The notes under the pieces were generated by a model that was given only the letters and a program-made list of their open reading frames with translations, was not told the origin of the DNA and did not search any database. A stretch of 64,000 nt of DNA from Epibacterium sp. Ofav1-8 (lineage in GTDB: Bacteria; Pseudomonadota; Alphaproteobacteria; Rhodobacterales; Rhodobacteraceae), in assembly GCF_022348185.1 (NCBI RefSeq), contig NZ_JAKRFD010000005.1, positions 62,001 through 126,000 of the forward strand. Reading direction: 5' to 3'. The stretch's first letter is position 1. Every line of letters starts with the position of its first letter. The position numbers and the translations under genes were made by a program. Positions 5,995 through 60,739 of this stretch are shown here, piece after piece.

Positions 5995-7514
5995 ACCGCG
6001 ACCTCCACGCCTGCGGCCTGAGCCACGCGACCGGCGCGCACCATGGCGCTGGCGGCTTCGATCTCAGGCGCGAGGTAGCGGTCTTCGCCCAGGCTGGGGA
6101 TTTCACCGCGCAGCATGGTCAGCAAATCCTGCAAGCGGGTGGAGGTTTTGAGCGGCGCGCGCGCCTCCACACCCTGCGCGGCGCAGAGCATTTCCACCCC
6201 AAGGATCACCGAAAGATTCGCTGTCATCTTCGCCAGACGCAGCGCGCCATGGGCCGCCATCGATACGTGATCTTCCTGGTTGGCAGAGGTCGGCGTGGAA
6301 TCGGTCACGCAGGGGTTTGCCAGATGCTTGTTCTCGCTCATCAGCGCCGCGGTGGTGACCTCGGCGATCATGAAACCGGAGTTCAGGCCGGGGTTGGGCG
6401 TCAGGAAGGGCGGCAGGTCGTGGCTCAGGGTCGGATCGACCATCAAGGCGACCCGGCGCTGCGCGATCGCGCCGATCTCGGCCACGGCGAGCGCGATCTG
6501 ATCGGCGGCAAAACCCACATATTCGGCGTGGAAATTGCCGCCCGAAACAATCCGACCAGCCTCGACCAGCACCAGCGGGTTATCGGTCACTGCGTTGGCC
6601 TCAATCTCCAGCGTGCGCGCGGCCATGCGCAGCACGTCAAGTGCCGCGCCCACCACCTGCGGCTGGCAGCGGATGCAATAGGGATCTTGGACGCGGGTGT
6701 CGCCCTCACGGTGGCTTTCCCGAATTTCCGACCCGTCCATGATGTCGCGCATCACCTGCGCCACATCGATCTGCCCCGCATGACCACGCAGCGTGTGGAT
6801 GTCGGCCACCAGCGGTGCGGTGGAGCCCATGATCGCATCGGTCGTCAAAGACGCAATTGCCATGGATGCCCGCGCCAGATCCAACGCCTGAAACAGCCCA
6901 GCCAGCGCGCAAGCGGTCGAGAACTGCGTTCCGTTGATCAGGCCGAGGCCTTCTTTCGGCCCCAATACGATAGGCTGCAGCCCCGCGCGTTTCAGCGCTT
7001 CGGCTCCGGACAGGCGCTCGCCTTCAAACGTCGCCTCACCCTCACCAATCATCGCCGCTGTCATATGTGCCAGCGGAGCAAGGTCGCCCGATGCGCCGAC
7101 AGATCCTTGCGACGGCACGACCGGGGTCACCCCACGCGCCAGCATCTCCTCGATTTGATTGATCACCAACCAGCGCACACCCGAGGCACCGCGTCCAAGC
7201 GACAAGAGCTTCAACACCATCATCAGCCGCACTTTGTCTTCGGCCAATGGCTCACCGACGCCGCAGGAATGGCTGAGGATCAGGTTTCGCTGAAGTGTTG
7301 CGGTATCTTCGGATGCGATCTTGGTCGAGGCCAGTTTGCCAAATCCGGTGTTGATGCCATAGACAGGCGCCTCACCTGCGGCGGCCTCGGCCACCATCGC
7401 GGCTGCCGCTTCGACACCTGCGCGGGCAGAGGGTGCCAGACGTGCGGGGGTGCCATTGCGCCAGATCTGCTCCAACGTGGAGAGGGTTACGGTGCCGGGG
7501 ATCATCTCGATCAT
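5991..7514 (-). CDS. hutH: Histidine ammonia-lyase (histidase)
   Basis: HutH removes ammonia from L-histidine to form urocanate, the first step of the pathway and the source of the HutC inducer. The 507-residue length is normal. The Ala-Ser-Gly triplet that cyclises into the MIO cofactor is in [13 protein letters not shown] near residue 145. [11 protein letters not shown] near residue 50 and [20 protein letters not shown] near residue 400 are also family hallmarks. It overlaps hutG (ATGA) and hutI by four bases. Nothing suggests it is instead a tyrosine or phenylalanine lyase, given the hut context. Confidence 0.97.
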
Positions 7515-8728
7515 GTGCGAACCTCCAGTTTGCCGCCCATGACGCGGGCATGCAGCGGGTTAAATCCAATGCGATAGGCCAGTTCTGCCGGGCGGGCGAC
7601 GTCCCAGACCACAAGATCTGCGCGCAGACCGGGCGCGATACGTCCCCGATCCGAGAGGCCCAGCGCGCGAGCCGCATGAGTCGTTACCCCGGCCAATGCC
7701 TCTTCGGGTGTCAGCCGGAACAGGGTGCAGCCCATGTTGAGCGTCAGGAGCAACGAAGTCAGCGGTGAGGAGCCGGGGTTACAATCGGTCGCCAAAGCCA
7801 TGGGCACGCCATGGGTGCGGAAATGCTCCATCGGTGGCAATTGCGTTTCCCGGATCGTGTAGAAAGCACCGGGCAAGAGCACGGCAACAGACCCGGAGAC
7901 CGCCATCGCGCGGGCGTCTTCCTCGGTCGCGTATTCCACGTGATCGACGGACAAGGCGCCGCGTTCTGCCGCCAGCTTGCTGCCCCCTTGATGGGACAGC
8001 TGCTCAGCGTGGAGCTTCACCGGCAGGCCCAGCTCGGCTGCAACATCAAAGACACGCGCGATCTGTTCGGCAGAAAAGGCGATGCCCTCGCAAAAGCCAT
8101 CCACCGCATCCACCAGTCCCTCGGCATATGCAGCCCGCAAGGTCGGCAGGCAGACCTCATCCAGATATTCATCCGCACGGCCCGCATATTCCGCCGGGAC
8201 CGCATGCGCGCCGAGGAACGTGGTCTTGACCGTTACATCCCGCAGTTCGCCCAAACGGCGCGCCGCGCGCAGCATGTTAAGTTCGGTGTCGCGATCCAGC
8301 CCATAGCCGGATTTTACCTCGACCGAGGTCACCCCCTCAGCAAGCAGCGCATCCAGACGGGGCAGCGCACCAGCGACAAGCGCTTCCAGATCCGCCGACC
8401 GGGTCGCCGTCACCGTGGATACGATACCGCCACCCGCCTTTGCGACCTCTTCATAGCTCGCCCCATTGAGGCGCATCTCAAACTCGCCCGCGCGATCACC
8501 GCCAAAGACAATATGCGTATGGCAATCGATCAGCCCCGGCGTCACCAGCCGTCCGCCCAGATCCTCATGCGGCCAAGTTTTGTACTCCGCCGGAAGGGAG
8601 GCTTCAGGGCCGCACCAGACGATTTCAGCGCGATCAATGGCGACGGCTCCCGCTTCGATCATCCCATATGGCGCGCCCGGCTCCATCGTTGCCAGCTTGG
8701 CTCCACTCAACACGTATTTGTCGCGCAT
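7511..8728 (-). CDS. hutI: Imidazolonepropionase
   Basis: HutI is a metal-dependent amidohydrolase that opens the imidazolone ring to give N-formimidoyl-L-glutamate, the third step. The metal-binding [17 protein letters not shown] segment is near residue 70. [27 protein letters not shown] and [10 protein letters not shown] follow, all typical of the family. The start at 8728 gives 405 residues and has a purine-rich GAGGGGG just upstream. A longer reading would begin at 8827, inside hutF, and is rejected. It is the first gene of the leftward operon, transcribed from the divergent hutI/hutF promoter region. Confidence 0.96.
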
Positions 8729-8749
8729 CTCGCCCCCCTCAGAATCCTC

Positions 8750-8778
8750 TTGCTCCACAAACGGTATGCGCTTATTCT
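8750..8778 (+). promoter_or_regulatory. Probable sigma70 promoter for hutF
   Basis: TTGCTC (8750-8755) and TATTCT (8773-8778) are separated by 17 bases. The expected transcription start (about 8785) falls inside the palindromic operator, which is the geometry of a repressor-controlled promoter. Assigned by eye, not by scoring. Confidence 0.45.
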
Positions 8779-8780
8779 CA

Positions 8781-8796
8781 TTATGTCTATACATAA
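8781..8796. promoter_or_regulatory. Palindromic operator, probable HutC site
   Basis: TTATGT-CTAT-ACATAA is a palindrome with two perfect six-base arms, in the 77 bases between the divergent hutI and hutF start codons. Its core TGTCTATACA resembles the TGTATATACA-type sites known for HutC repressors. hutC is present at 10713. Binding is inferred from sequence and position. Confidence 0.65.
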
Positions 8797-8815
8797 GAGG
8801 GCCAGATGCAGACAA
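8786..8815 (-). promoter_or_regulatory. Possible sigma70 promoter for hutI-hutH-hutG-hutU
   Basis: On the minus strand TTGTCT (8815-8810) and TATAGA (8791-8786) are 18 bases apart. The -10 lies within the palindrome at 8781-8796, so one bound repressor could shut off both directions. Confidence 0.4.
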
Positions 8816-10170
8816 TTTTTGCCGCAACCGCCTGCCTGCCCGAGGGCTGGGTTCAGGATGTCCGCCTGACCGTTGAAGGCGGCAGCATCACACGTATTGA
8901 GAGCGCCGCCACCGCCGCACCCGGCGATACGCGCGTCGATGTCTTGCTGCCGGCGCTTGCGAACCTGCATTCTCATAGCTTTCAGCGCGCCATGGCTGGC
9001 CGCACGGAGTATCGCGCGGGTGGGCAGGACAGTTTCTGGACATGGCGAGAGCTGATGTATCGCTTCCTCGACCACCTCACGCCTAAACAATACGAAGCCG
9101 TGGCGGCGCTGACCTTCATGGAGATGCTGGAGGCTGGCTATGCTTCTGTCGGTGAATTCCACTATGTCCATCATCAGCCCGGCGGTACCCCCTATGAGAG
9201 CCTCACCGAACTCAGCCAGCGGGTGATGGCGGGCGCTCAACAAACCGGCATCGGCCTCACACATCTGCCCGTTCTCTACACCTACGGCGGTGCGGAAAAA
9301 CAGCCACTTGCGGGCGGGCAGCTGCGGTTTGGCAATGATGTTGAGCGTTTCTCGCGTCTTGTCACCGAGGCCCGCGGTGCGGCGCAAGAGCTCGGGGGCG
9401 ACACGCGCGTCGGTATCGCGCCGCATTCCTTGCGGGCCACCTGCCCCGAGGATCTTGCCGCGGTGTTGCCGGTCGCCGCCGAAAACCCCATCCACATCCA
9501 CATCGCCGAACAACCGCGTGAGGTGGCCGAGATCAAAGCATGGCTCGGCGCACGTCCAGTGGAATGGCTGCTCGCGAATGCACCAGTAAATGACCAATGG
9601 TGCCTGATCCATGCCACGCATATGACGGACGAGGAAACCCGGCGCATGGCAAGATCCGACGCCGTGGCGGGCCTCTGCCCCGTGACAGAGGCAAACCTCG
9701 GCGATGGCCCCTTCAATGGACCGGAGTTTCTGGCAGAGGCCGGGCGCTTTGGCGTTGGCTCCGATTCCAACGTGCGGATCTCATTGGTCGAAGAGTTGCG
9801 CACGCTTGAATACTCGCAACGCCTCCGCGATCTGGCGCGCAACGTGCTGGTTCCCCATGAAGGCTCCGTCGGTGAAACGCTCTATCTGGGCGCGGCCAAG
9901 GGTGGGGCACAGGCGCTTGGCCGGAGCGCCGGACGGCTGGAGGTTGGCGCGCTTGCGGATCTCGTTGCGATTGACCGCAACCATCCCGCCCTGTTTGGCT
10001 TGCCAGAGGCGCAAATTCTGGATGGATTGTGTTTTGCGGCTGACGACCAGACCGTCACCGATGTCTGGGCGGCCGGTCGTCACATGGTGCAAGAAGGGCG
10101 CCACATCGCCCGTGACGCCATCGTCAAAACCTACCGCACGGCAATCACATCGCTTCTCGCAAAGCTTTGA
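8806..10170 (+). CDS. hutF: Formimidoylglutamate deiminase
   Basis: HutF is an amidohydrolase that deiminates N-formimidoylglutamate to N-formylglutamate and ammonia, feeding HutG. The 454-residue length fits. The metal site [19 protein letters not shown] is near residues 47-65. [15 protein letters not shown] and CLIHATHM lie further on, and [20 protein letters not shown] carries the catalytic aspartate region. The start codon is only nine bases after the operator palindrome, so the transcript leader is very short. The 3' end overlaps the converging hutD by 26 bases. Confidence 0.95.
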
Positions 10171-10675
10171 TCTGAACATGCAGCACCGTGCCCTCGACTA
10201 CACCTTGGGCCGGTGCCTCCAGCGCGCAGCCTTGCGCGGCGACGAAATGATCCCCGCCAAGGTGAAGCGCGCCGTCGATCACAAAGACCAGATCACCCGC
10301 CTGCCCAGCAAAATCCCCTTGATGCACCTGAGCCTTCACCTGCACGTACCGTGGGTCAAAGATCACGTTCACGGCGCGGCACGGGCCATCAATCAACTGC
10401 GCCTCCAATGCCAAACCTCCGTCAAACTCCAGCGGCGTCAATGGCTTGGCCTCTCGCTCTGCGTCTGTGCTGTGCAAACACAGTCCTTTGCCTGCGATGA
10501 TGGTATGAACACGCCACAGCCCAGGAAACGCAGAAAACGGCCCATTTTGCGCAATCTCCGCAAGGCTCAGACGCCAGATTAGGCCGCCCGCCCCTTCGCG
10601 CACCGCAAGCTCTCGCGTGGTGCCGCCACCGTTCTTCCATGACATCGGTTCGATCTGCGCAGCGTCAAAGCGCAT
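10145..10675 (-). CDS. hutD: HutD/Ves family cupin protein
   Basis: The 176-residue protein belongs to the HutD family: MSWKNGGGTTRELAV at the start, WRLSLAEIAQNGPFSAFPG, then a short cupin-like barrel. HutD proteins occur in hut loci and are thought to set an upper limit on hut expression, probably by binding a pathway intermediate rather than by catalysis. The start at 10675 has AAAGGAG six bases upstream; a longer in-frame reading lacks such a site. It is divergent from hutC with only 37 bases between start codons, and convergent and overlapping with hutF. Confidence 0.88.
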   Translation of the reverse strand: MRFDAAQIEPMSWKNGGGTTRELAVREGAGGLIWRLSLAEIAQNGPFSAFPGLWRVHTIIAGKGLCLHSTDAEREAKPLTPLEFDGGLALEAQLIDGPCRAVNVIFDPRYVQVKAQVHQGDFAGQAGDLVFVIDGALHLGGDHFVAAQGCALEAPAQGVVEGTVLHVQIKALREAM

Positions 10676-10712
10676 GGGCTCTCCTTTACAAGCGCGGTTT
10701 AAGGCAGACATA

Positions 10713-42225: not shown

Positions 42226-42630
42226 ATGAGTGGATTGGTCCTTAAACTCGCGCCCAAAGAGCGCGTCCTGGTCAACGGAGCCGTGATCGAAAACGGAGAT
42301 CGCCGCAGTCGCTTGTCGATCGTCACCCCTGATGCGCATATCCTGCGCCTGCGGGATGCGATCCACCCCGAACAAGCGAATACGCCGGTGCGCCGTGTGT
42401 GCTATGCTGCACAGCTGGTCCTGTCCGGCGACGTCGACCCCGAAGAAGATCGCCTGCCGATGCTGCGTCGTATCGAAGAGCTGAGCCAGGTCTTTACCGA
42501 CCCGGATAGCCGTGCGGCGCTTTCGGAGGCCACGGAGGCGGTGATCAGCAACAACCACTATCGCTGCCTCAAGGCCTTGCGGGCCTTGCTGCCTCGCGAG
42601 GAGCGGCTGATGGCCGTCAGATCGCAATGA
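42226..42630 (+). CDS. flbT: Flagellar biosynthesis repressor FlbT
   Basis: The 134-residue FlbT binds the flagellin mRNA leader and represses or tunes its translation in alphaproteobacteria. Family parts are LVLKLAPKERVLVNGAVIENGDRRSRLSI at the N-terminus and ISNNHYRCLKALRALLPREERLM at the C-terminus. It starts two bases after the flaF stop and overlaps the following gene by ATGA. Confidence 0.95.
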   Translation: MSGLVLKLAPKERVLVNGAVIENGDRRSRLSIVTPDAHILRLRDAIHPEQANTPVRRVCYAAQLVLSGDVDPEEDRLPMLRRIEELSQVFTDPDSRAALSEATEAVISNNHYRCLKALRALLPREERLMAVRSQ

Positions 42631-44579
42631 GCTTCACACCGCATATTCCGTCTTCGGGGGTCGCGGGCTGGAACTTTTTGCAATCGACCTATGACCGGCA
42701 ATACGATGCTTTCATCAAGTCCGGACAGTTAAAGAACGACAGCGAATACTTTGCCGAGAATATCGGCAAAGTGACCTCCAGCGATGACTTGCTCAATGAC
42801 CGCCGCCTGCTTCAGGTGGCGGTCAAGGCGTTCGGGTTGGAAGAGGAAATCAACTACCGGGCCTTGCTTCAGCGCGCGCTGAATGAAGGGACGTCGGCGG
42901 ATGATGCGCTCGCCAATACCATGAATGACGAGCGCTACGTGGATTTCTCCGAGGCCTTCGGCTTTGGTCCGGGGCAATCGCCCATGACCGGCGACAAAAA
43001 GGCCATGCAAGCCGTCATGGACAAGTTCCAATCCGCTTCCTTCGAAGAAGCCGTGGGCGAAGTCGATGAAACGATGCGCACGGCCCTGTTTGCCAAACGG
43101 GCCATGCTCGAGGTCTTTGGCGAGCCGGACGAGGACGATGTGTCCCAGCTGAGCGTGAAAGAGCGCGCGCTGCGGGAATTCGACCTCACCCTGAAGGAAA
43201 TCAACGGCGCTGAAGATGGCCCGCAGGGGGTGACCTCGGTTGAGGATCAGTGGAAAGACATCGTTCAGCGGGACGTGCTGACCGATTTCTTCAACACGAC
43301 GCTGCGACTGCCGCCTGCCGCTGCGGGGCTGGAAGAGGACGAACTGATCCAGACCTATCGGGATCGGGCGATGATCGTGTTTGGCAGCGACGATCCCACG
43401 GTGTTCTTTTCCGCGGACAACAAGGCGACAATCATCTCCGGCTATAAAACACGTGCAACGGTGGATGGTGATCTGAGCGAAGATATCGCAAAGACTGCGA
43501 CTCTCGCGGAGAATATCCTGGACCAGTTGGTATCACGGGACGCTGCGTTGAACGAGGAATGGGACTTTATCTCCCGGCAGGATCCGCTGGCCGACTTCAT
43601 GAAGGTGGCCCTGGATCTTCCCGATGACATCGCCGAACGTCCCACCAGCGAAGCCATGCGAATTTATCGCGAGAAGGCGATCGAGGAATTCGGCACCGAT
43701 GATCCCAACGTGTTTGCCAGCAGCGATCAGCTCGATGCAACCCTTGCGGTCTATCGGGAAAAAGCCTCTGCCGCCGGCATGCGCAACAGCGAAATCTCTT
43801 CCAACCTGAGAACGGTTGAGACCATCTTTGAATTTTCCTTCGACTCCACCGATGTGGTCGATGAGGACGGGGAAAATGCAGCCGCAGCGGCCGAAATTGA
43901 TGCCGGCTGGTACAGTATCATGGGGCAAACCGGTGTCCCCCGGTTCCTGCAAACCGCTCTGGATGTAAATTCGGCGCTCGACGCAGGGGAGGTGTTTGAC
44001 GACCTGACCATCGACGAACAGTTGACCATCTACAAAGACAAGGCGACCGAACTGTTTGGCACCGAGGATCTGAACGAGCTGACCGGCCCGTATCAAATGG
44101 GCGCACTCAGCGACGCGTATCGGACCAACGCAGAGGCTGCTGGTGAGAGCGAGTTCTTCATCACCTACTACACGCAGATTGCAGAGCGGGAATTGAACAC
44201 TCTGTTCCAGACCGATGACACGGATGCGGAGCAGGAGTTCGAGGATGCGCTGGAAGAGCTGCGCACCATGAATGACGAAGATGACGGGCCCAGCGCCAGC
44301 TCGCAGTGGTTCACGATCATGGGGCAACAGGCCATGACCGACTTCATGCAGGTCGCACTCGGCTTGCCCAAGGAAGTGGGCCAGATGGATATTGACCAAG
44401 CTGTCGAGGTTTACAAACGCAAGGCCAAGGATGTCCTGGGCACTGACAAACCATCCGAATTCATTGCAGGCGACAAGATGGATGATCTTGTGAACCTGTA
44501 CCTGACACGCGCCCAGATGAATTCGATCAACAGCGGTTACAGCTCCGGCAACGCCGCGCTGATGATGTTGCGCAGCTAG
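42627..44579 (+). CDS. DUF1217 flagellar protein with tandem repeats
   Basis: The 650-residue protein opens with a DUF1217 domain (SSGVAGWNFLQSTYDRQYDAFIKSG; then YFAENIGKVTSSDDLLNDRRLLQVAVKAFGL). DUF1217 proteins are found in alphaproteobacterial flagellar clusters and have no settled role; secretion or hook association is only suspected. Here the C-terminal two thirds hold four diverged repeats starting near residues 216, 319, 435 and 568, each with a DF/RF.(K/Q)(V/T)AL.(L/V) helix, a Y(R/K)(E/D)(K/R)A segment and FG(T/S)(D/E)(D/N). It is acidic and has no signal peptide. It is the last gene of the flagellin unit. Confidence 0.85.
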   Translation: MSFTPHIPSSGVAGWNFLQSTYDRQYDAFIKSGQLKNDSEYFAENIGKVTSSDDLLNDRRLLQVAVKAFGLEEEINYRALLQRALNEGTSADDALANTMNDERYVDFSEAFGFGPGQSPMTGDKKAMQAVMDKFQSASFEEAVGEVDETMRTALFAKRAMLEVFGEPDEDDVSQLSVKERALREFDLTLKEINGAEDGPQGVTSVEDQWKDIVQRDVLTDFFNTTLRLPPAAAGLEEDELIQTYRDRAMIVFGSDDPTVFFSADNKATIISGYKTRATVDGDLSEDIAKTATLAENILDQLVSRDAALNEEWDFISRQDPLADFMKVALDLPDDIAERPTSEAMRIYREKAIEEFGTDDPNVFASSDQLDATLAVYREKASAAGMRNSEISSNLRTVETIFEFSFDSTDVVDEDGENAAAAAEIDAGWYSIMGQTGVPRFLQTALDVNSALDAGEVFDDLTIDEQLTIYKDKATELFGTEDLNELTGPYQMGALSDAYRTNAEAAGESEFFITYYTQIAERELNTLFQTDDTDAEQEFEDALEELRTMNDEDDGPSASSQWFTIMGQQAMTDFMQVALGLPKEVGQMDIDQAVEVYKRKAKDVLGTDKPSEFIAGDKMDDLVNLYLTRAQMNSINSGYSSGNAALMMLRS

Positions 44580-50341: not shown

Positions 50342-50353
50342 GGTGAACTTGTG

Positions 50354-50878
50354 ATGTCAAAACTGCTTCCAGTCATCATGCTGATCATCGGACTTGGAGG
50401 GGGTATCGGCGCCGGCATCATGCTGGCGCCCGCGCCCGAAGAGCCCATCACACCGGCAAGTTCAGACGCCGAGGCTGATGAGAATGCCACCACGGAGGCC
50501 GGCACCGATACGGATGACACCGCGGACGATCACGACGCCGCCAGCGATGCGCCTGCTAATGAGTTCATCAAGATCAACAACCAGTTTGTGATCCCCGTGG
50601 TCGAACGCGATCAGCTGGCGTCGATGGTGGTGGTGTCCTTGAGCCTGGAAACCAAGCCGGGCATGGCCTCCAAGGTCCATGCATTCGAACCGAAGCTGCG
50701 CGATGTGTTTCTCAGGGTGCTGTTTGACCATGCCAACATGGGCGGTTTTCGCGGTGCCTTCACCCGCTCCGAAGTGCTTGATCCGCTGCGTACATCCCTG
50801 CGGGAGGAGGCGCGCCGCTTCCTTGGCAAGGACCTCGTGGATGTGTTGATCCTCGAAATCACCCGCCAGGACGTCTGA
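50354..50878 (+). CDS. FliL-like flagellar membrane protein (second copy)
   Basis: The 174-residue protein has one membrane helix (about 4-22) with a Gly-rich tail, an acidic linker rich in Asp, Ala and Thr (about 30-70), and a C-terminal FliL-like domain (FIKINNQFVIPVVERD, VVVSLSLETKPGMASKVHAFEPKLRDVFLRVLFD, ARRFLGKDLVDVLILEITRQDV). It differs from the canonical FliL at 60096 and ends the flgB operon. A GTG one codon before is an alternative start. A stator-supporting role is inferred from FliL. Confidence 0.82.
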   Translation: MSKLLPVIMLIIGLGGGIGAGIMLAPAPEEPITPASSDAEADENATTEAGTDTDDTADDHDAASDAPANEFIKINNQFVIPVVERDQLASMVVVSLSLETKPGMASKVHAFEPKLRDVFLRVLFDHANMGGFRGAFTRSEVLDPLRTSLREEARRFLGKDLVDVLILEITRQDV

Positions 50879-52441: not shown

Positions 52442-53217
52442 GGCATACCTGCGCCGGGATTGGCAAAGAAGCTCAGCAAGTTACGCCCCCAGACGTCGAG
52501 GATCATCGGTGCGCTGACCATCAGCAGGAACAACGCGCCCAGGGTAATCACCGGCGCCCCGATAAAGACCACCATCAACTGCGGCATGGCCCGGTTGATG
52601 ATGCCGAGGGTGAGATTGTAGATCACCGCAGTGATGATAAAGGGGGCCGCCAGGGTGAACGCGCCGGAAAAGGCCTGCGAAACCCGGAACACGCCCCATT
52701 CCGACAGTCCCGATGCCTCGGGGAACTGCCCAACGGGAAACAACTGGTAGGATCCGATCATCAGTTCGACGGCGCGGATATGCAGGTCGAGCAAGATCGC
52801 CAATGCGATCCCCGCGATCCACAGGACCGCGCCGACCGCTGGCATCGGATCGACCCCGGCCCCGCCGAGCACCTGGCTCAGAGAGGTACACTGGGCCGCG
52901 ATGGACCCCGCAGTCTGCAACATATGCATGAACATGCGCAGCGCCATACCAAGCGCCAGACCCACCACAACCTCGGTTGCAATCAGCCCCGCGTACTGCA
53001 TGATCGTCTCCGGCATCGGCATTTGCGGCAACGCCGGTGCGACGACGGCCGTGAACACAAGCCCGACTGCAAGCCGCATCTGGGTCGGAAACATCTGCTC
53101 GCCAAACGCCGGCATGATCGACACCATGGCACCGATCCGCAGGAACACGATGGCCGCCTGCCAAAAGCCAATACCAAGCAGTGCCATCAGTTCCGGAGTG
53201 ATGCCTTCGAATCTCAT
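52438..53217 (-). CDS. fliR: Flagellar export gate protein FliR
   Basis: The 259-residue, six-helix protein belongs to the FliPQR gate. Typical parts are GFWQAAIVFLRIGAMVSIMPAFGEQMFPTQMRLAVGL, IATEVVVGLALGMALRMFMHMLQTAGSIAAQ and the helical C-terminus ending VWGRNLLSFF. The start at 53217 overlaps the flhA stop by ATGA; longer readings would run into flhA. Confidence 0.96.
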   Translation of the reverse strand: MRFEGITPELMALLGIGFWQAAIVFLRIGAMVSIMPAFGEQMFPTQMRLAVGLVFTAVVAPALPQMPMPETIMQYAGLIATEVVVGLALGMALRMFMHMLQTAGSIAAQCTSLSQVLGGAGVDPMPAVGAVLWIAGIALAILLDLHIRAVELMIGSYQLFPVGQFPEASGLSEWGVFRVSQAFSGAFTLAAPFIITAVIYNLTLGIINRAMPQLMVVFIGAPVITLGALFLLMVSAPMILDVWGRNLLSFFANPGAGMP

Positions 53218-55304
53218 GCAGGGACCATGCCAACCAGGGCCGGGCGTGCCTCGAGGCCGATCTCCTCGAACGACAGCACCGGGTTTTGAATGCCGCGCGA
53301 CCTCAGAATTGTGCGCAGGTAGCGCCGGCGGCGGGTCGAGGTGACGATCGCAGCAAACACCCCCTGTTCCGTGACCTGATTGATCTTGTCGCTCATCGCC
53401 TCCACCAGTTTGTTGAACGTGTCGGGCGGCAAGGCGATATCGAGGCCGGACTGGGTTTCCACCTGATAGGTGTTGAAGGCATCTTCCCATTCAGGCGCCA
53501 GTTGCACCAACGGGATGGTACCATCCTCGCGTTTCATTTCCGCGACCAACTGGAACCCCAGGCGCTGACGGACATGCTCGGTGATCAGTTCCGGCGATGT
53601 GGTTCGCATGCGAGCTTCGGCAATGGACTCCAGAATAAGTGGCATGTTGCGGATCGATACGCGCTCTTCCAGCAGCAGCCGCAGCACCGCGTGCAGCGTG
53701 TCGATCGGCACCTTGTCCGGGATCAGCTCATCCAGCAGTTTCTTGTTGGCATTGGCCCGGAACTCGTCCGACAGTTCGGTCATTTCGCGCAGCAGGCGGC
53801 GCAACGCCTTGAGTGTCAGAAGGCGCGGGAAGCTCTGCTTGACCACTTCTAAAAGATGGGTGGCCAGGATTTCCGGCGGCGATACAACGGTGGCCCCCAT
53901 AAGGGCGGCATCTTCCTGGTGTTTCGTGGAAATCCAGCGCGCGGGCGCGCCGTAGACCGGTTCGGTAACATCAGTGCCCTTGGGCAGCGCAGCATGATTG
54001 TCCGGCATCAATGCCAGCACCATATCGGCATGAAGCGTGCCCCGTGCCTGCTCAACACCCTGGATACGAATGACATAGGTCCCGTTTTCCAGTTCCGCCT
54101 CATCGGTCAAACGGATTTCCGGCAGGATGAGACCAAACGTGGTCGCAACATGCGTGCGCATGTTGGCAATCCTCGCGTCGAGGCCCGTTCCTGGGTCCAG
54201 AACCATCGACACCAGGTCTTGCGAGAACTCCAGGTGCAGATCATCAAGATCGAGAATATCGCCAAGCGCTTTCGATTTCTCCGGCGACTGCACTTCCTCG
54301 ACCTTGGCATCAATTTCCTTCTGCGCCTCCTCGGCGTTCTTCTTCTGCATGCGGTAGGCGAAGAAACCCAGCACTGCGCCGCCGGTAATGAAAGGGATAA
54401 AAGGCAGACCTGGAACCAGGGCAAAGAGCACCATCAAGACAGCAACAGCTGCCAGCGCTCCGGGATATTTGCTCATTTGCGAGAAAATCGCCGCGTCGGT
54501 CGCACCGGTAGCGCCACCGCGGGCCAGCAGCAACGCCGCCGCGATGGAGATGATGACCGAAGGGATTTGGGAAACGAGGCCATCGCCGACGGTCAGAATC
54601 GCATAGGTTTCAAACGCGGTTCCCAGGGGCATGCCATGGATCAGAACCCCCATGATCAAGCCGACGATCAGGTTCAGCAGAGTGATCAACAGGCCCGCAA
54701 TGGCATCGCCCTTGACGAATTTTGATGCGCCGTCCAGCGAGCCAAAGAAGGTGGTCTCTTTCTGCTCTGTCTCGCGACGTTCCTTTGCGGTCGCGTGATC
54801 GATCGCACCCGCGGACATATCACTGTCGATCGCCAGCTGTTTGCCCGGCATGCCATCAAGTGCGAAACGCGCGCCCACTTCGGCCATTCGGGCCGCGCCC
54901 TTTGTGATCACCATGAAGTTCACGATGAGCAGCACGCCGAACACAACAAGGCCGAGGAAGACGCTGCCCCCCATGACGAAATTGGCAAACCCTTCGATCA
55001 CGTTACCGGCCGCATCGGTCCCGGAGTGACCTTGCCCAATGATCAACTTGGTCGACGACACATTGAGCGACAGGCGCAACATCAACGACCCGAGCAGGAT
55101 GGTCGGGAACGACGAGAAATCCAGCGGCCTTTCGATGAAAAGCGTGATCGTGAATATGAGGATGGCGAGCGCAAAGGATGTGGCAAGGCCAACATCCAGC
55201 ACCCAGGCTGGCATTGGCAGGATCATCATGACGATAATCGCCATGAGCGCCATAGCGAGCAGGATTGTCGGGCTGAAAAGCTCTTTGACTGACAGATTCG
55301 GCAC
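53214..55304 (-). CDS. flhA: Flagellar export gate protein FlhA
   Basis: The 696-residue protein has about eight membrane helices in the first 320 residues, the conserved cytoplasmic loop KGAARMAEVGARFALDGMPGKQLAIDSDMSAG near residue 150, and the large C-terminal chaperone-docking domain (PEILATHLLEVVKQSFPRLLTLKALRRLL, ending ALVGMVPA). FlhA uses the proton motive force for export. The start codon is GTG at 55304 with AAGAGA upstream. It is followed by fliR with overlap. Confidence 0.97.
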   Translation of the reverse strand: MPNLSVKELFSPTILLAMALMAIIVMMILPMPAWVLDVGLATSFALAILIFTITLFIERPLDFSSFPTILLGSLMLRLSLNVSSTKLIIGQGHSGTDAAGNVIEGFANFVMGGSVFLGLVVFGVLLIVNFMVITKGAARMAEVGARFALDGMPGKQLAIDSDMSAGAIDHATAKERRETEQKETTFFGSLDGASKFVKGDAIAGLLITLLNLIVGLIMGVLIHGMPLGTAFETYAILTVGDGLVSQIPSVIISIAAALLLARGGATGATDAAIFSQMSKYPGALAAVAVLMVLFALVPGLPFIPFITGGAVLGFFAYRMQKKNAEEAQKEIDAKVEEVQSPEKSKALGDILDLDDLHLEFSQDLVSMVLDPGTGLDARIANMRTHVATTFGLILPEIRLTDEAELENGTYVIRIQGVEQARGTLHADMVLALMPDNHAALPKGTDVTEPVYGAPARWISTKHQEDAALMGATVVSPPEILATHLLEVVKQSFPRLLTLKALRRLLREMTELSDEFRANANKKLLDELIPDKVPIDTLHAVLRLLLEERVSIRNMPLILESIAEARMRTTSPELITEHVRQRLGFQLVAEMKREDGTIPLVQLAPEWEDAFNTYQVETQSGLDIALPPDTFNKLVEAMSDKINQVTEQGVFAAIVTSTRRRRYLRTILRSRGIQNPVLSFEEIGLEARPALVGMVPA

Positions 55305-55622
55305 GGTTTTTCTCTTATGTGAAAGCGATCAGAAACAGGCCGGCAGCACCGGTCGGGACAGGGCGAGATCTGTCGGACCACAGGTGTTTCAGAAGACCAA
55401 ACGCCAAAAGCCGTGACGGCAATGCAGAGCAATGCGGCACGGCCACGGACAACCGGCCTTGCGGCGCGGTAAATTTCATCGCGTTCACTGGCATTCTGCC
55501 TGTTCCAATTCAGGATTCTTCCCTGGATTTCAGGTTAGGCGTCCAGGATTTACAAAGTGTTATCACCGCGAAAGGAAATGGCCGCCCCGAAGAACGGCCA
55601 TGTCACCTGCAGAGTTATCGCG
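55305..55622. other. 318-base gap upstream of flhA
   Basis: The gap separates flhA from the upstream gene on the same strand. A seven-base-pair hairpin (55578-55584 with 55595-55601) lies just after the upstream stop codon and could be a weak terminator. A separate flhA promoter may lie here but none was recognised, and no gene is supported. Confidence 0.5.
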
Positions 55623-58067
55623 TTACGGTTCGTCTGGAGCTGTGTCGCGTTCAACCTGCCGCAACAGCTCTTCGATCGAACTGCGTGCGCCCATACTGCT
55701 TTCGACCAGCGCGCGCGCTTCGGCCAGCGGTGGCAGTCCCTGCGGTTCGCGCACCGCCGCATCAATCTGATCCGTCAGATCGGAAACGGCACGGAATGGC
55801 GCCCGGTCCTGATCCAGTGTTTCCACGGCCTGACGATCTTCCGAGTGCCAGAAACCACGGGCAGCCTCGTTCAACTCCTGTGCGGACAGCATGTACTCGC
55901 TGGCGCGATTGTATTCCTTGTTCAACCACAGGGCCTTGGCGCGCATGCGATCCGCCTGCTCACCTTCAAGTCCCATCAACTCCACCAATGCACGCTGCGG
56001 TTGCTCCATAGCCAGATGTGCTTCAGCACTCATCATGCGTCGGTTTTGATTGCCCGGCTCCAGGCTCATCTTGCGCAGAAGGTTCTCTGCCTGCTCGGGA
56101 AAGCCCAGATCAAGAAGGCGTCGCGCGACCATCTCACCAACCTGCGCTGCACGTGTTGCGCCACTGTCCTCGGCAAAAATGAGGCCATATTTGAGGAAAG
56201 TGACATCATCCGCGTTTTCCGTCAGCAAGGTCATGAACGGAAGGTTTGCCCGGTTGCGCGCCGCGACCCCGTCGCGGGCCGTGAGCCTATTGAACCGCGC
56301 AGATGCCTCGTCAAAGCGGCCAACCAGCGCCAGCGCGGTGACCTCAGCCACACGCAGATCCGCACCAAGTTCCGTATCGCGGTTTTCCAACTCGTAAGAG
56401 GCCGCCAACTCTGGCACATCCGGAGACAAAGCCCGCCGTTCTTGAAAGCTCAATTCGATCAGGTCGATCAGAGCACGCGGCGTATTTTCACTCTGCGCAG
56501 CGACTTCTTCCGTCAGGTTGCGAGCAACCGCGTCACTGTCTCCCTCAAGTGCGGCGATGGCCGCTTCTGCCAGATTGCGATCAGGAATGTTCTCGACGCC
56601 GGTGCGCTCCACGGCGCGCATCGCGACTTTGGCAACATGGGGATCACCCGCTTCGGCGAAAAAGGTGCTGACCCTTGGCCCCAGCTGAACCCGAAGGTGA
56701 GGCGGCATCTTCGCAAAGGCCTGCTGGATGGCATCGGTGTTGGCGCTTTTTTTCACCACACCGTCCGACATCGCCGCCCAGAAGGCCGCATCTCCGCCGC
56801 AGGTTTGCTGACCGGAGAAAACGGTGTTCACGGGCAAATCCGCAGAATCGAGGATTCGAGCCATGGTCGTCATGATCTCGCGGGACCGCGTTGGCAGATC
56901 GTCTTCCGGGATCAGGTTCAAGGTCGCGGCCGCCTCGGCACCAAAACCAAAATACAGATAGGTGCGTGCCAGTCGAAGGGTCGCCTCGCGATTCACCTGG
57001 TCAAATTCACCAAGGATCTTGTTGCGCAGCGCACTGATCTGCTCGGAAAACGGCTGATCATCACCCCAATCGTGAATCGCCAGTTCGCGATCCGCAATGC
57101 AATGCGTATCCTGTGAATCGCCTCCGGCTCCGACGGCCAGCAAGCCGGTTTCACGGTCGATGGCCGATGTCACCGAAATATTGTCCAGCGGATTGAGCGG
57201 CCGGTTCTCATTGCCAAGCGGATCAAGCTGGTTGGTCGCGGCGTCCTGATCTGTCGGTTGCAGCAACCCCTGATCGCTGGCGCGTCCGATCTGTTGCAGG
57301 ATTCGCGCTTCGGTATCATTGACCATTGCCGCCCGCCGGTTCTCGTCGAGATCCATCAACAGGCTGGCGTCCGACTCCAGCGAGGCAGGCTCTGATTTAC
57401 CATCTTTGGTTTTTTCGTTCGCAGCGACCTCGGGTGTATCCTCGGCCAATTGTGTACCACCGGCATCTGTTCCCTCTAGCGGGGCGCCATCCGGGCCGGC
57501 TGCATTCAATGGCAACTGGACGGGACCAGTATGCCGAGGGCTTTGCTGAGCTGTGCCAAAGGTCTGGGCCACAGCATCCGCCAGGTCCATTGCAACCCGC
57601 GCACTGGCCAAATCCTGTTGACCCAGTTGAAAGCCGCCCCCGATCGCCGCAGACGGAAATGTAAGGGGCAGGCTGGTTGTGTCCGCTGGCGCATCCAGTT
57701 TCAGCGACCGGCCTTCCCGAACGTCCACGACAAGATAGCCATCGGCCTGCTGATAATAGTCCACGGCGCACTCGCACCCCAGTTCGATCCGGAGCGGTTG
57801 CCCCGGGCCGGTCTGGCTCACAGAGCGGACCCGGGTGCGGGGGATCAGATCAAACACGTTGCGCGTATTGAACACCGCGGTCGGCGATCCGACGTTGATT
57901 GTCGCAATACGGTCGCTCTGCGTCAGAGACCATTCCACACCATCCGGAATTCGCATCACCAGACGTGTAAAATCCTCGTGTTCTCCGGACCTGGCGACAA
58001 TGGTCTGCGCGCTTGCGTATCCGGCTATCACCATTGCGGTGGCATATGCGATTGCTCGCGAGATCAT
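55623..58067 (-). CDS. Large periplasmic flagellar protein, MotC-position, with TPR-like repeats
   Basis: I do not recognise a characterised family for the whole 814-residue protein. It has a signal peptide (1-20, ending YASA) and an N-terminal beta-rich domain (about 22-125; FTRLVMRIPDGVEWSLTQSDRIATINV, VVDVREG) that resembles AMIN-type envelope domains. An acidic low-complexity linker spans about 150-310. A long helical region follows from about 320 to 790 with paired helices of TPR-like spacing (ATLRLARTYLYFGFGAEAAATLNLI, MMSAEAHLAMEQPQRALVELMGLEG). It overlaps motA by ATGA and sits two genes after a MotE-like gene. In Sinorhizobium, MotE is the chaperone of the periplasmic protein MotC, so a MotC-like role is a reasonable inference. 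Confidence 0.75.
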   Translation of the reverse strand: MISRAIAYATAMVIAGYASAQTIVARSGEHEDFTRLVMRIPDGVEWSLTQSDRIATINVGSPTAVFNTRNVFDLIPRTRVRSVSQTGPGQPLRIELGCECAVDYYQQADGYLVVDVREGRSLKLDAPADTTSLPLTFPSAAIGGGFQLGQQDLASARVAMDLADAVAQTFGTAQQSPRHTGPVQLPLNAAGPDGAPLEGTDAGGTQLAEDTPEVAANEKTKDGKSEPASLESDASLLMDLDENRRAAMVNDTEARILQQIGRASDQGLLQPTDQDAATNQLDPLGNENRPLNPLDNISVTSAIDRETGLLAVGAGGDSQDTHCIADRELAIHDWGDDQPFSEQISALRNKILGEFDQVNREATLRLARTYLYFGFGAEAAATLNLIPEDDLPTRSREIMTTMARILDSADLPVNTVFSGQQTCGGDAAFWAAMSDGVVKKSANTDAIQQAFAKMPPHLRVQLGPRVSTFFAEAGDPHVAKVAMRAVERTGVENIPDRNLAEAAIAALEGDSDAVARNLTEEVAAQSENTPRALIDLIELSFQERRALSPDVPELAASYELENRDTELGADLRVAEVTALALVGRFDEASARFNRLTARDGVAARNRANLPFMTLLTENADDVTFLKYGLIFAEDSGATRAAQVGEMVARRLLDLGFPEQAENLLRKMSLEPGNQNRRMMSAEAHLAMEQPQRALVELMGLEGEQADRMRAKALWLNKEYNRASEYMLSAQELNEAARGFWHSEDRQAVETLDQDRAPFRAVSDLTDQIDAAVREPQGLPPLAEARALVESSMGARSSIEELLRQVERDTAPDEP

Positions 58068-58933
58068 GCTGCGTCCTGTTTCACTTCATTCAAAGCTTCC
58101 TCCAGCTCGGAGAACCCGGGCCGGATGTGGGATGGCGTGTTCTGACGCCCCACTTCGATACAGATGGCTGCGGCGTGGTTGTGAAGATTCGCGACGAGAA
58201 CCTCACGTATCAACTGATAGAAATGCGCGTCTTCCTCGACCACGGACTTCACCTTGCCCGCAAAGGGCGCGACCAGGCCGTAGGAGAGGAACACCCCGAG
58301 GAACGTCCCCACAAGCGCGCCGCCGATCATCTTACCCAGCACTTCTGGCGGCTGGTCGATCGAGGCCATGGTCTTGATGACCCCCAGAACCGCCGCAACA
58401 ATCCCGAGGGCTGGCAGACCGTCGGCCATGGTCTGCAGCGCATGGCTTGAATGCAGCGCGTGGTGCAGGTTCGCCTCGATCCGCTTCTCCAGAACCTCCT
58501 CCACCTGATGCGGGTCATCATAGTTCATGGATGCAGAACGCATGGTGTCGCTGATCAGGTTGACTGCTTCCTTGTCCGCAAGGATTTTTGGGTATTTGCC
58601 AAAAACCGTAGAGTTTTCAGGGTCTTCGATATGCTGTTCGACCTCGACCGGATTGGCCCGAGCGATACGAATCAGAGCGAACAGCAGACAGAGGAGATCC
58701 TTGTAGTCATCAGGTTTCCACTTCGGTCCCTTGAAGACCTTTCCCATGTCCTTGAGCGTGTGCTTAACGCCGCCCATGTCATTGCTGATCAGGAACGCCC
58801 CGATCGCCGCACCGCCAATCATCATCATCTCGAAAGGGAGAGACTTGAGGATGATGCCCAGTTTACCCCCTGCAAGAAGGTAACCACCAAACACCATGGC
58901 AAAGATCACGATGATCCCTACAATCCCGATCAT
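58064..58933 (-). CDS. motA: Flagellar motor stator protein MotA
   Basis: The 289-residue, four-helix protein is the stator subunit that forms the proton channel with MotB and pushes on FliG. Typical parts are GIVGIIVIFAMVFGGYLLAGGKLGIILKSLPFEMMMIGGAAIGAF at the start and ALGIVAAVLGVIKTMASIDQPPEVLGKMIGGALVGTFLGVFLSYGLVAP in the last third. No MotB gene (peptidoglycan-binding OmpA domain) is adjacent; it is presumably outside the window. It overlaps the large periplasmic gene by four bases. Confidence 0.96.
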   Translation of the reverse strand: MIGIVGIIVIFAMVFGGYLLAGGKLGIILKSLPFEMMMIGGAAIGAFLISNDMGGVKHTLKDMGKVFKGPKWKPDDYKDLLCLLFALIRIARANPVEVEQHIEDPENSTVFGKYPKILADKEAVNLISDTMRSASMNYDDPHQVEEVLEKRIEANLHHALHSSHALQTMADGLPALGIVAAVLGVIKTMASIDQPPEVLGKMIGGALVGTFLGVFLSYGLVAPFAGKVKSVVEEDAHFYQLIREVLVANLHNHAAAICIEVGRQNTPSHIRPGFSELEEALNEVKQDAA

Positions 58934-59007: not shown

Positions 59008-59622
59008 TTACTCCTTGGGCACCTCACCATTTCGTCCGGCCAGCACAACGCTGATCGTATAGGCGGCTTCGGGGCTCAGACCGGCCATGATGCCAGCGGC
59101 CGCATCCGGGCGCATCCGCGCCAGAAAACCGGCGGCAAAACTCGGATCCATTTCCTCAAACAGCGCCGCTGCGTCCTTGGGCTTCATCTGCTCATAGACA
59201 GAGGTCAGCGTGGTGACATCCGCTTCGGCCGCACCGTCCGCCAGGGCCAGTGTTGCCAGCAGTTTCTGTTCCGCCTGCTGAAGATCCGTCAGCTTCTTCT
59301 CGATCGCCTCATCCGCGATCTCGAGCGCCTTCATGCGGTCTTCGATCTCGGCTTCGCGCTCATCAAGCATGGCTTCGCGCTTCTTGAAGGCTGCCAGCAT
59401 CGCCTGCATTTCCGCCGAATCGGGAACCGCCTGTCGCGTCATTGGCCCGGCCTGTTCGTTCGGCGTGTCGGATTGAAGCTCCGCCACTTCGCGCGCGATC
59501 GCCGGACCAGCCTCCAGCGCGATGCGGACAGCTGCAGAGCCCATCAGGAACACGGCCAGCAACATCAATGTGCCACGCTTGGCCTTTTCCATCTTCTTGG
59601 ATTTGTCTGCCTTCGCCATCAC
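59008..59622 (-). CDS. motE: MotE-like flagellar chaperone with MgtE_N-like C-terminus
   Basis: The 204-residue protein has a single N-terminal membrane or signal-anchor helix (about 17-36) and a long coiled coil (about 65-130; FKKREAMLDEREAEIEDRMKALEIADEAIEKKL). Its C-terminal repeat region is of the MgtE N-terminal-domain type (PKDAAALFEEMDPSFAAGFLARMRPDAAAGIMAGLSPEAA). This is the layout of MotE proteins, which in Sinorhizobium protect and fold MotC. It is 74 bases upstream of motA and overlaps the gene before it by ATGA. Confidence 0.83.
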   Translation of the reverse strand: MMAKADKSKKMEKAKRGTLMLLAVFLMGSAAVRIALEAGPAIAREVAELQSDTPNEQAGPMTRQAVPDSAEMQAMLAAFKKREAMLDEREAEIEDRMKALEIADEAIEKKLTDLQQAEQKLLATLALADGAAEADVTTLTSVYEQMKPKDAAALFEEMDPSFAAGFLARMRPDAAAGIMAGLSPEAAYTISVVLAGRNGEVPKE

Positions 59623-60086
59623 GCCACCCGGTTCTGATTCCGGTTGTGACGCACAAACATCAGCCCCGCAGGTTTCGACTCCTCCTGCGGCTCGGGTTGA
59701 ACCGGCTCGGCCGGCTCCTCCACCTGCGCATCCGCTTCATACGCTTCGGCCAAGGCGTCGTTTTCCTCGGTTGCCTGAGCGGCCGGCTGAGCCTCCTGCT
59801 GCGGTGCGATGTCGTGCATCGACGCCATCATCAGCTCCAGCTTGTGCGCCACCGATTCGGCGCGTCCGGTCAGCTGCTCCAGGGCCCGGCTGGATCCGTC
59901 AGACATCTGACGGGCTGCCACCAGCGATTTGTTCAAGTCATCTACTTGCGATGAGAGCACCGCCACCGCGCCTCCGACCCCTTTTTCGAGATCATTGAAG
60001 CGTTTCAGACGGCGCGACAGCACCAGGCAATAAAACCCGGCACCCAGTGCTCCGGCCGCAAGCAGGATATCAGCAATAAGTTCCAT
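59619..60086 (-). CDS. Membrane-anchored coiled-coil flagellar protein (DUF6468-like)
   Basis: The 155-residue protein has an N-terminal membrane helix (MELIADILLAAGALGAGFYCLVLSRRLKRFNDLEKGVGGAVAVLSS, helix at about 4-22). A short coiled coil follows to about residue 90, then an acidic Gln/Glu/Pro/Ala-rich tail and a basic end. This matches the DUF6468-type proteins of alphaproteobacterial flagellar operons, whose role is not known. It sits between fliL and the MotE-like gene. Confidence 0.7.
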   Translation of the reverse strand: MELIADILLAAGALGAGFYCLVLSRRLKRFNDLEKGVGGAVAVLSSQVDDLNKSLVAARQMSDGSSRALEQLTGRAESVAHKLELMMASMHDIAPQQEAQPAAQATEENDALAEAYEADAQVEEPAEPVQPEPQEESKPAGLMFVRHNRNQNRVA

Positions 60087-60095
60087 CCTGTCCTC

Positions 60096-60620
60096 CTAGT
60101 TGAGTACGAAATCCATGATCAGCAGATCGCGCACGCGCCCTTGACCGGTCGCGATATTGATCCGCCGTAGCATCTGTGCCCGCAGTTTCGGCAAGGCCAT
60201 CGGATCGGTCATATCCTCAAGCTCCAGCGCCCGCAGATAACTGTTCAGAACATCGACAACCCTGGGGAGGACTTTTTCAACCTCGGCCTGATCGGCCTGG
60301 TTGACCTCGAGTTGCGCACGGAACCGAAGCTGTTGAACACCGCTGGCTTTGTTCAGCGTGATCACGATCGGTTCCATTTCGATAAAGGCGAGGCTGGCGA
60401 TCTCTTCCGCCGACTCACCCTTGCTCACACCTTCTGGTGCCTCTTTGGTCGCATGCGCATCTTCCGGCGCCTGAGTGCTCCCAAAGGGAAGAAGGCCTGA
60501 CTGAACGGCGTAAAACCCGCCCCCTGCACCGGCAATGGCAAGTACGAGCCCAATGATAAGGGGCATCTTACTCTTCTTCGCCGATCCTTCTGTTTCTACA
60601 TCAGCTACAGCGTCTGTCAT
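60096..60620 (-). CDS. fliL: Flagellar basal-body associated protein FliL
   Basis: The 174-residue protein has a short cytoplasmic head (with SAKKSKMP), one membrane helix (about 20-40; LIIGLVLAIAGAGGGFYAVQSG) and a periplasmic FliL domain (FIEMEPIVITLNKASGVQQLRFRAQLEV, QMLRRINIATGQGRVRDLLIMDFVLN). FliL surrounds the stator and helps torque. The start at 60620 has AGGA upstream; an in-frame reading 11 codons longer lacks one. It heads the leftward operon and is divergent from fliF. Confidence 0.93.
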   Translation of the reverse strand: MTDAVADVETEGSAKKSKMPLIIGLVLAIAGAGGGFYAVQSGLLPFGSTQAPEDAHATKEAPEGVSKGESAEEIASLAFIEMEPIVITLNKASGVQQLRFRAQLEVNQADQAEVEKVLPRVVDVLNSYLRALELEDMTDPMALPKLRAQMLRRINIATGQGRVRDLLIMDFVLN

Positions 60621-60666
60621 GGCTTTTCCTAAAACGTCGTGCACCCCGTTCATAACCCGACAGGAA

Positions 60667-60681
60667 CTAACCGAATGTTAA
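60667..60681 (-). promoter_or_regulatory. Probable CtrA-like site between fliL and fliF (TTAA-N7-TTAG)
   Basis: On the minus strand TTAA and TTAG are separated by seven bases; on the plus strand it reads CTAA-N7-TTAA. One base differs from the TTAA-N7-TTAA consensus, and it lies in the divergent promoter region of two flagellar operons. Confidence 0.45.
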
Positions 60682-60739
60682 GGCCAATCGGAGAAAAGGG
60701 TTGCAGGCCGGAGAGAACGCCGGTGCGACGGAGGTTAAT

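Follow-up and report, generated by a model that had tools for sequence, protein, structure and literature searches.

A probable MotK homologue with a four-cysteine set in the flagellar locus of Epibacterium sp. Ofav1-8

The DNA considered here, hereafter the window, is a stretch of 64,000 nucleotides of contig NZ_JAKRFD010000005.1 (assembly GCF_022348185.1, positions 62,001 to 126,000 of the forward strand) from Epibacterium sp. Ofav1-8, a member of the family Rhodobacteraceae within the class Alphaproteobacteria. Its minus strand carries a flagellar locus with the gene order fliL-pflI-motE-motA-[motK]-flhA-fliR-flhB, fliF being divergent (Table 1). The gene in brackets, which is the subject of this study, begins with an ATG that shares four nucleotides (ATGA) with the motA stop codon. 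A sequence-only reading of the window had pointed out an 814-residue open reading frame (ORF) with this overlap, preceded by a MotE-like gene and motA, and this is confirmed for the minus strand; on the plus strand this interval is interrupted by stops. The ORF is not due to chance, because the MotK profile (profile A1) finds a match in 270 of the 394 genomes sampled from the family. The gene is very probably motK, and its product would be a homologue of MotK of Cereibacter sphaeroides, needed for rotation.

Table 1. Features of the motK locus, in positions of the window. AF2, AlphaFold2; pLDDT, predicted local distance difference test score; E, expectation value
Feature	Position	Strand	Basis or remark
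motK-type gene, 814 amino acids	55623..58067	minus	814 codons plus stop; homologous to C. sphaeroides MotK
Signal peptide, residues 1-20 (MISRAIAYATAMVIAGYASA)	58008..58067	minus	sequence inspection only
AMIN domain (predicted), residues 21-118	57714..58007	minus	AF2 pLDDT ~95 in full model; mean 93.2 folded alone
Cys98-Glu-Cys100 (CxC)	57768..57776	minus	both columns Cys in 146/146 distinct family proteins
Linker, residues 119-318, largely disordered	57114..57713	minus	pLDDT mostly <50; helices 150-169, 240-265
Conserved linker helix, residues 240-268 (..ILQQIGRASDQGL)	57264..57350	minus	conservation
TPR solenoid, residues 319-779	55731..57113	minus	AF2 pLDDT mostly 90-98; TPR_19 E 6.8e-7; TPR superhelices Z up to 15.1
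Cys323	57099..57101	minus	Cys in 146/146 distinct family proteins
Cys423	56799..56801	minus	Cys in 146/146 distinct family proteins
C-terminal helix, residues 780-806 (L..A..L..S...R..I..LL)	55650..55730	minus	conservation
motA	58064..58933	minus	MotA_N 3e-36; NCBIfam MotA1 5.8e-108
motE (COG3334/FlgY-FlbB type), 0 Cys	59008..59622	minus	MgtE_N 2.1e-5; FlbB model (spirochaete collar protein) 3.3e-6, under that model's cut-off
pflI (DUF6468)	59619..60086	minus	53% to C. sphaeroides homologue
fliL	60096..60653	minus	
flhA, downstream neighbour of motK-type gene	53214..55304	minus	

MotK was described in 2024 by Velez-Gonzalez et al. in C. sphaeroides as a protein of 652 residues with an AMIN-like N-terminus, the rest being TPR-like (PMC10954123). 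It belongs to the Fla2 motor, is encoded in the operon fliL2-pflI-motE-motA2-motK, and is reported as periplasmic and as binding MotE and MotB2; mutants in motK or motE are flagellated and paralysed, peptidoglycan binding by MotK is put forward as a proposal, and homologues of low similarity are mentioned for Roseobacteraceae (PMC10954123). In BLASTP, the window protein aligned with C. sphaeroides MotK in two segments, covering window residues 246-588 (E 9e-28, 29.6% identity over 345 amino acids) and 10-119 (E 1.5e-12, 32.4% over 111 amino acids), and the two bacteria share one gene order from fliF to flhB. The comparison genome (G051) was taken as C. sphaeroides because its cytochrome c1 is 100% identical to a chain of PDB entry 2qjk over 155 residues, its MotE has 185 amino acids with a single cysteine at position 49 (29 + 20), matching the published values, and its MotK, read from the motA-overlapping ATG, has the published 652 amino acids. 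The nearest named relatives of the window protein, 72-75% identical, come from the MedPE-SWcel metagenome bin, from Phaeobacter sp. B1627 and from species of Tritonibacter, in a search that may omit near records of the window's own genome; this places the window in the corresponding part of the Roseobacter group. By analogy, the knock-out phenotype, the binding to MotE and MotB and the localisation described for C. sphaeroides would be carried over to MotK of the window. The statement of the sequence-only reading that no function had been assigned is thus superseded, MotK having been known since 2024, while its idea of an exported partner of MotE that probably belongs to a structure in the periplasm at the stator has held.

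The protein starts with a predicted Sec signal peptide, the boundary of which was placed by inspection at MISRAIAYATAMVIAGYASA-QT. An AlphaFold2 model built from 73 sequences (mean pLDDT 82.8, predicted template modelling score 0.63) consists of a confident beta domain (residues 21-118), a largely disordered linker (residues ~119-318) and a confident helical solenoid (residues ~320-800). The five best VIA-align rows for the beta domain are AmiC (Z 11.1, root-mean-square deviation 3.1, 102 residues), three PilQ entries (Z 11.1 over 100 residues, 9.9 and 9.3) and Slr0280 (Z 9.8), the matched PilQ and Slr0280 domains being, as we take it, AMIN domains; the next row after the AMIN structures is a small heat-shock protein with Z 8.3. 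Pfam AMIN-like is matched by 31 and Pfam AMIN by six of 72 family beta domains (E up to 0.1), the window's own beta domain matching neither at that threshold, and the top PDB sequence match of the domain is PilQ with E 0.0072. The N-terminal domain is predicted from these models to have the AMIN beta-sandwich fold. The solenoid matches the TPR structures of LGN and OGT with Z 14-15; searches of PDB sequences with the window protein, the family profile and the MotE profile gave no significant matches. The combination of an AMIN-like beta domain with a TPR solenoid, as proposed in the sequence-only reading, is borne out by the TPR_19 match, the models and the AmiC and PilQ fold matches. Residues 240-268 reach a mean information of 1.34 (occupancy 0.90), as compared with 0.44 (occupancy 0.38) for residues 120-239. 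The C-terminal helix equals the TPR part in conservation (mean information 1.19 for both) and is retained in short family members that are devoid of the last repeats.

Within the family, a search with the single protein detected MotK in 103 of 149 genomes, all of which contain FlhA, and in none of the 27 genomes devoid of FlhA. FlhA occurs without MotK in 19 genomes, 12 of which have a high-scoring, Fla1-like FlhA as the only full-length copy; the types were split at 765 bits, a line that was set after the scores had been seen and that falls between the C. sphaeroides copies of FlhA, which score 773.6 and 708.5 bits, and one of the 12 genomes (G030) has an additional partial FlhA piece of 160.6 bits. 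Since MotK is found in none of these 12 genomes and in all five that possess both types, it accompanies the Fla2-type motor in the 149-genome sample. The 161 family loci collected correspond to 152 distinct proteins, and motA lies directly upstream of motK in 149 of the 152 distinct loci, the remaining three lying at contig ends; with the motK start set at the codon closest to the motA stop, this means a same-strand motA end at most 4 nucleotides from the start in 148 loci and 87 nucleotides from it in one (L128). An overlap of four nucleotides is present in 124 of the 152 loci, and motE was not detectable in three loci with room for it (L038, L048, L164). A plasmid collection yielded a single, partial match. 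MotK is likely to be an exported, periplasmic accessory part of the stator of a vertically inherited alphaproteobacterial ("Fla2-type") motor.

Beyond the family, the MotK profile matched 121 of 289 genomes of the class, three of them from the window's family. FlhA was detected in 106 and MotE in 112 of the 121, and 40 further genomes of the class possess FlhA and MotE and have no MotK match. Stretches of 11-19 kb were fetched for 38 of the 43 best-ranked genomes outside the family (all except G429, G677, G655, G394 and G597) and for two lower-ranked ones (G503, G513), giving 40 stretches, with fliL in 34. The sequence-only reading had tied the gene to both motA and motE, and the tie holds in the family; in the class, motA is present in two of the 40 stretches, though motE is in 36. 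MotK-like ORFs of 584-1,412 residues were found in 38 of the stretches, 36 of them with at least 933 residues, and the two remaining loci match at the DNA level with no ORF match in the hidden Markov model search. The ORFs contain two (18 of 38), one (17) or no (three) beta-domain hits. Two MotK-like proteins from other families (L215, positions 8947-10701; L196, positions 7289-9541) are encoded directly after motA and have no AMIN domain detectable by profile. According to PMC10954123, MotK has no BLAST similarity to proteins of Caulobacteraceae and the kinship was argued from structure; a 2025 preprint, in which PflA and PflB sequences are said not to be conserved across taxa (PMC11870540), and a 2026 review (PMC13023049) likewise group MotK, MotC and CC_2058 by structure. 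As the MotK profile matches the larger, mostly motE-linked proteins of the class, it appears to provide a link between them and MotK at the level of sequence; no Caulobacter locus could be named among the loci of the class. On balance we hold it probable that MotK and these larger proteins (933-1,412 residues) form one orthologous family recognizable by sequence, which would be the alphaproteobacterial version of the E-ring spoke. The lineage of the window would have kept one AMIN domain, placed the gene immediately after motA, with spoke and stator thereby translated together, and gained the invariant set of four cysteines, a CxC in the AMIN domain and a second pair where the TPR arm begins; the inter-chain disulfide of MotE would be missing in most of the family, and other lineages would have lost the AMIN domain.

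The four cysteine columns (Table 1) are the highest-scoring columns of the MotK alignment of 146 distinct family proteins, a set that excludes three contig-end proteins (L036, L040, L092), one that looks frameshifted (L128) and two over-extended ORFs (L017, L075). The spacing of the first pair is CxC in 144 and CxxC in two of them, and after residue 20 there are exactly four cysteines in 142 proteins and five in four. In the relatives from the class, where the unit of the count is the domain row and a protein having two AMIN-like domains thus enters it twice, the columns of Cys98 and Cys100 hold cysteine in none of 43 rows each, that of Cys323 in one of four and that of Cys423 in two of 30; Arg35 (53 of 53), His30 (47 of 53), Trp334 (20 of 21) and Trp430 (27 of 30) are retained. 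L196 and L215 both have a cysteine aligned to Cys423; L196 has one aligned to Cys323, in L215 a further cysteine lies upstream at roughly the distance expected, and neither contains CxC. Since these two AMIN-less proteins keep only the second pair, the pattern suggests, from two cases, that the disulfides would be local, Cys98-Cys100 and Cys323-Cys423, and would not reach across the linker.

In the available text of PMC10954123, cysteines or disulfides are mentioned only for MotE and, in a reference, for MotB. A disulfide-linked MotE dimer is reported there for C. sphaeroides and suggested for Sinorhizobium meliloti, and replacement of the MotE cysteine is reported to destabilise the protein in both (PMC10954123). 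MotE of the window has no cysteine, and neither have 85 of 121 distinct MotE ORFs of the family after residue 35, counted with uncurated starts; hence a disulfide-linked MotE dimer cannot be general.

Concerning the mechanism, we lean towards MotK acting as a spoke of the PflA type that joins the E-ring formed by MotE and the stator to the cell wall. The AMIN domain would grip peptidoglycan, and the TPR arm would extend, in the manner of a PflA spoke, to MotB and to the E-ring that MotE would form above the MS-ring; the putative disulfides Cys98-Cys100 and Cys323-Cys423 would stiffen the two folded parts. The best candidate docking sites would be the linker helix 240-268, because it is conserved within a variable linker, and the C-terminal helix 780-806, because it is kept in short members. 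In a Foldseek search with the whole window model, the periplasmic scaffold of Campylobacter jejuni (9hmf_K) took rank 2 (E 6.5e-5, 874 columns); the generic TPR proteins around it in the ranking score similarly.

Several observations weigh against the spoke and against the assignment on which it builds. Identity to the MotK that has been studied is only ~30%. The N-terminal domain of PflA matches the window beta domain with Z 7.4, a value inside the span of Z 8.3-6.3 that small heat-shock proteins, which are unrelated, cover; TPR solenoids give equally good matches to many unrelated proteins, PflA is not among the 50 fold matches listed for the solenoid, and the search of PDB sequences with the family profile did not find PflA and gave PflB only at a non-significant E of 2.5-3.3. 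MotK was not detectable in seven of 110 family genomes with a lower-scoring FlhA and in 59 of 165 genomes of the class sample that have FlhA, and six of the 121 class matches lie in genomes in which neither FlhA nor MotE was detected. Finally, the AMIN domain is lacking in the two other-family relatives L196 and L215, so that wall binding via this domain would not be universal.

An alternative is that MotK is an activator or recruiter of the stator which travels with MotA/MotB and forms no fixed ring or spoke. This is possible, though we doubt it: MotK of C. sphaeroides needs MotA2/MotB2 to localise, MotE does not (PMC10954123), and the frequent four-nucleotide overlap with motA in the family fits such a role, but across the class it is motE, not motA, that the gene accompanies, and the build of the protein resembles that of PflA. 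The sequence-only reading had placed the gene in the MotC position, and the protein could be a true MotC orthologue, chaperoned by MotE, controlling rotation via MotB and enlarged by an AMIN domain. MotC and MotK are both periplasmic, TPR-rich and partners of MotE, a 2026 review treats them as distant homologues (PMC13023049), and the AMIN-less MotK-like proteins of other families come nearer to MotC in shape. Nevertheless, MotC of S. meliloti is a different protein that is encoded after motB (PMC10954123), whereas the window gene follows motA and has no motB beside it, the only MotB_plug match of the source genome lying outside the window; furthermore, in C. sphaeroides MotE depends on MotK and not vice versa (PMC10954123), which is the reverse of the relation between MotE and MotC (PMC13023049). 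A motB-linked MotC was sought in 14 genomes of the class with no MotK match, and in the ten in which the ORFs after motB were read no MotC was evident. Orthology with MotC is judged unlikely.

The AMIN fold would also suit a cell-wall factor that opens peptidoglycan for flagellar assembly, the more so as 67 of 121 distinct loci carry, between motK and flhA, a gene for an SLT-type lytic transglycosylase (one such gene matches SLT with E 2.6e-8). No such gene was found at this position in the other 54, including the window, where the gap between motK and flhA amounts to 318 nucleotides (55305-55622), and in C. sphaeroides flagella are assembled even when motK is mutated (PMC10954123), which makes this role very improbable. 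Taken as a whole, the sequence-only interpretation is partly supported.

Some further features of the window may be recorded. The gap of 47 nucleotides between fliL and fliF contains a near-palindromic site (60666-60682) close to the CtrA consensus, which we take to be TTAAC-N6-TTAAC; it has two mismatches, and the window holds 12 such sites in total compared with a chance mean of 7.6, a statistically weak excess. Positions 42627-44579 encode a protein of 650 residues in which two stretches match DUF1217 (E 4.4e-48); the gene next to it looks by eye like one for flagellin. Directly after a gene that looks like flgH, positions 50351-50878 encode a protein of 175 residues with an N-terminal hydrophobic segment, FliL-like by eye, for which no Pfam family was matched at E up to 0.01.

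Summarizing, an apparently orphan protein of 814 residues now stands in a family with a known phenotype, and by this placement the motility of a large group of marine bacteria becomes readable via the work on C. sphaeroides and Caulobacter. In searches of an open-access library and in the papers cited here, no mention was found of the four cysteines, of the link by sequence across the class or of forms devoid of the AMIN domain, all of which would be new. The cysteine pattern together with the natural forms having no or two AMIN domains offers inexpensive ways of testing how the E-ring, the spoke and the stator hold together, and the cysteine-free MotE puts the generality of the disulfide-linked dimer in doubt.

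Among known systems, the closest counterpart is MotK of the Fla2 motor of C. sphaeroides (RSWS8N_12065, UniProt Q3IY86). It shares with MotK of the window the operon position, the signal peptide, the succession of AMIN domain, linker and TPR part, the four cysteines and the MotE encoded two genes upstream; they differ in size (652 versus 814 residues), with ~30% identity, and MotE of the window lacks the cysteine that is reported to link the dimer in C. sphaeroides. Dshi_3259 of Dinoroseobacter shibae and the other MotK homologues of Roseobacteraceae resemble it by description: they come from bacteria related to that of the window, are encoded by large genes that follow motA or motE and have an N-terminus of AMIN-like type (PMC10954123). 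Sinorhizobium MotC, periplasmic, TPR-rich and a partner of MotE like MotK, is described without an AMIN domain (PMC13023049); its length, as stated in the sequence-only reading, is ~430 residues. FssB (CC_2058) of Caulobacter crescentus is a motility protein that is exported, contains TPRs and has an AMIN-like N-terminus, its gene lying next to that of the MotE homologue CC_2059 (PMC13023049, PMC10954123, PMC7885107), and deletion of fssB disrupts motility with filament assembly being unaffected (PMC7885107). Proteins of FssB-like build throughout the class are matched by the MotK profile, CC_2058 not being among the loci by name. Campylobacter PflA, a spoke of the periplasmic scaffold, is composed of an AMIN domain, a flexible loop and a TPR arm and binds the E-ring protein FlgY (PMC13023049, PMC11870540); it spans from the E-ring to the rim, and its loop wraps PflB (PMC11870540). 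We know of no PflB in the system of the window. To the PflA build of AMIN domain, loop and TPR part corresponds that of MotK of the window, which is encoded near a homologue of the E-ring proteins (FlgY/FlbB/MotE).

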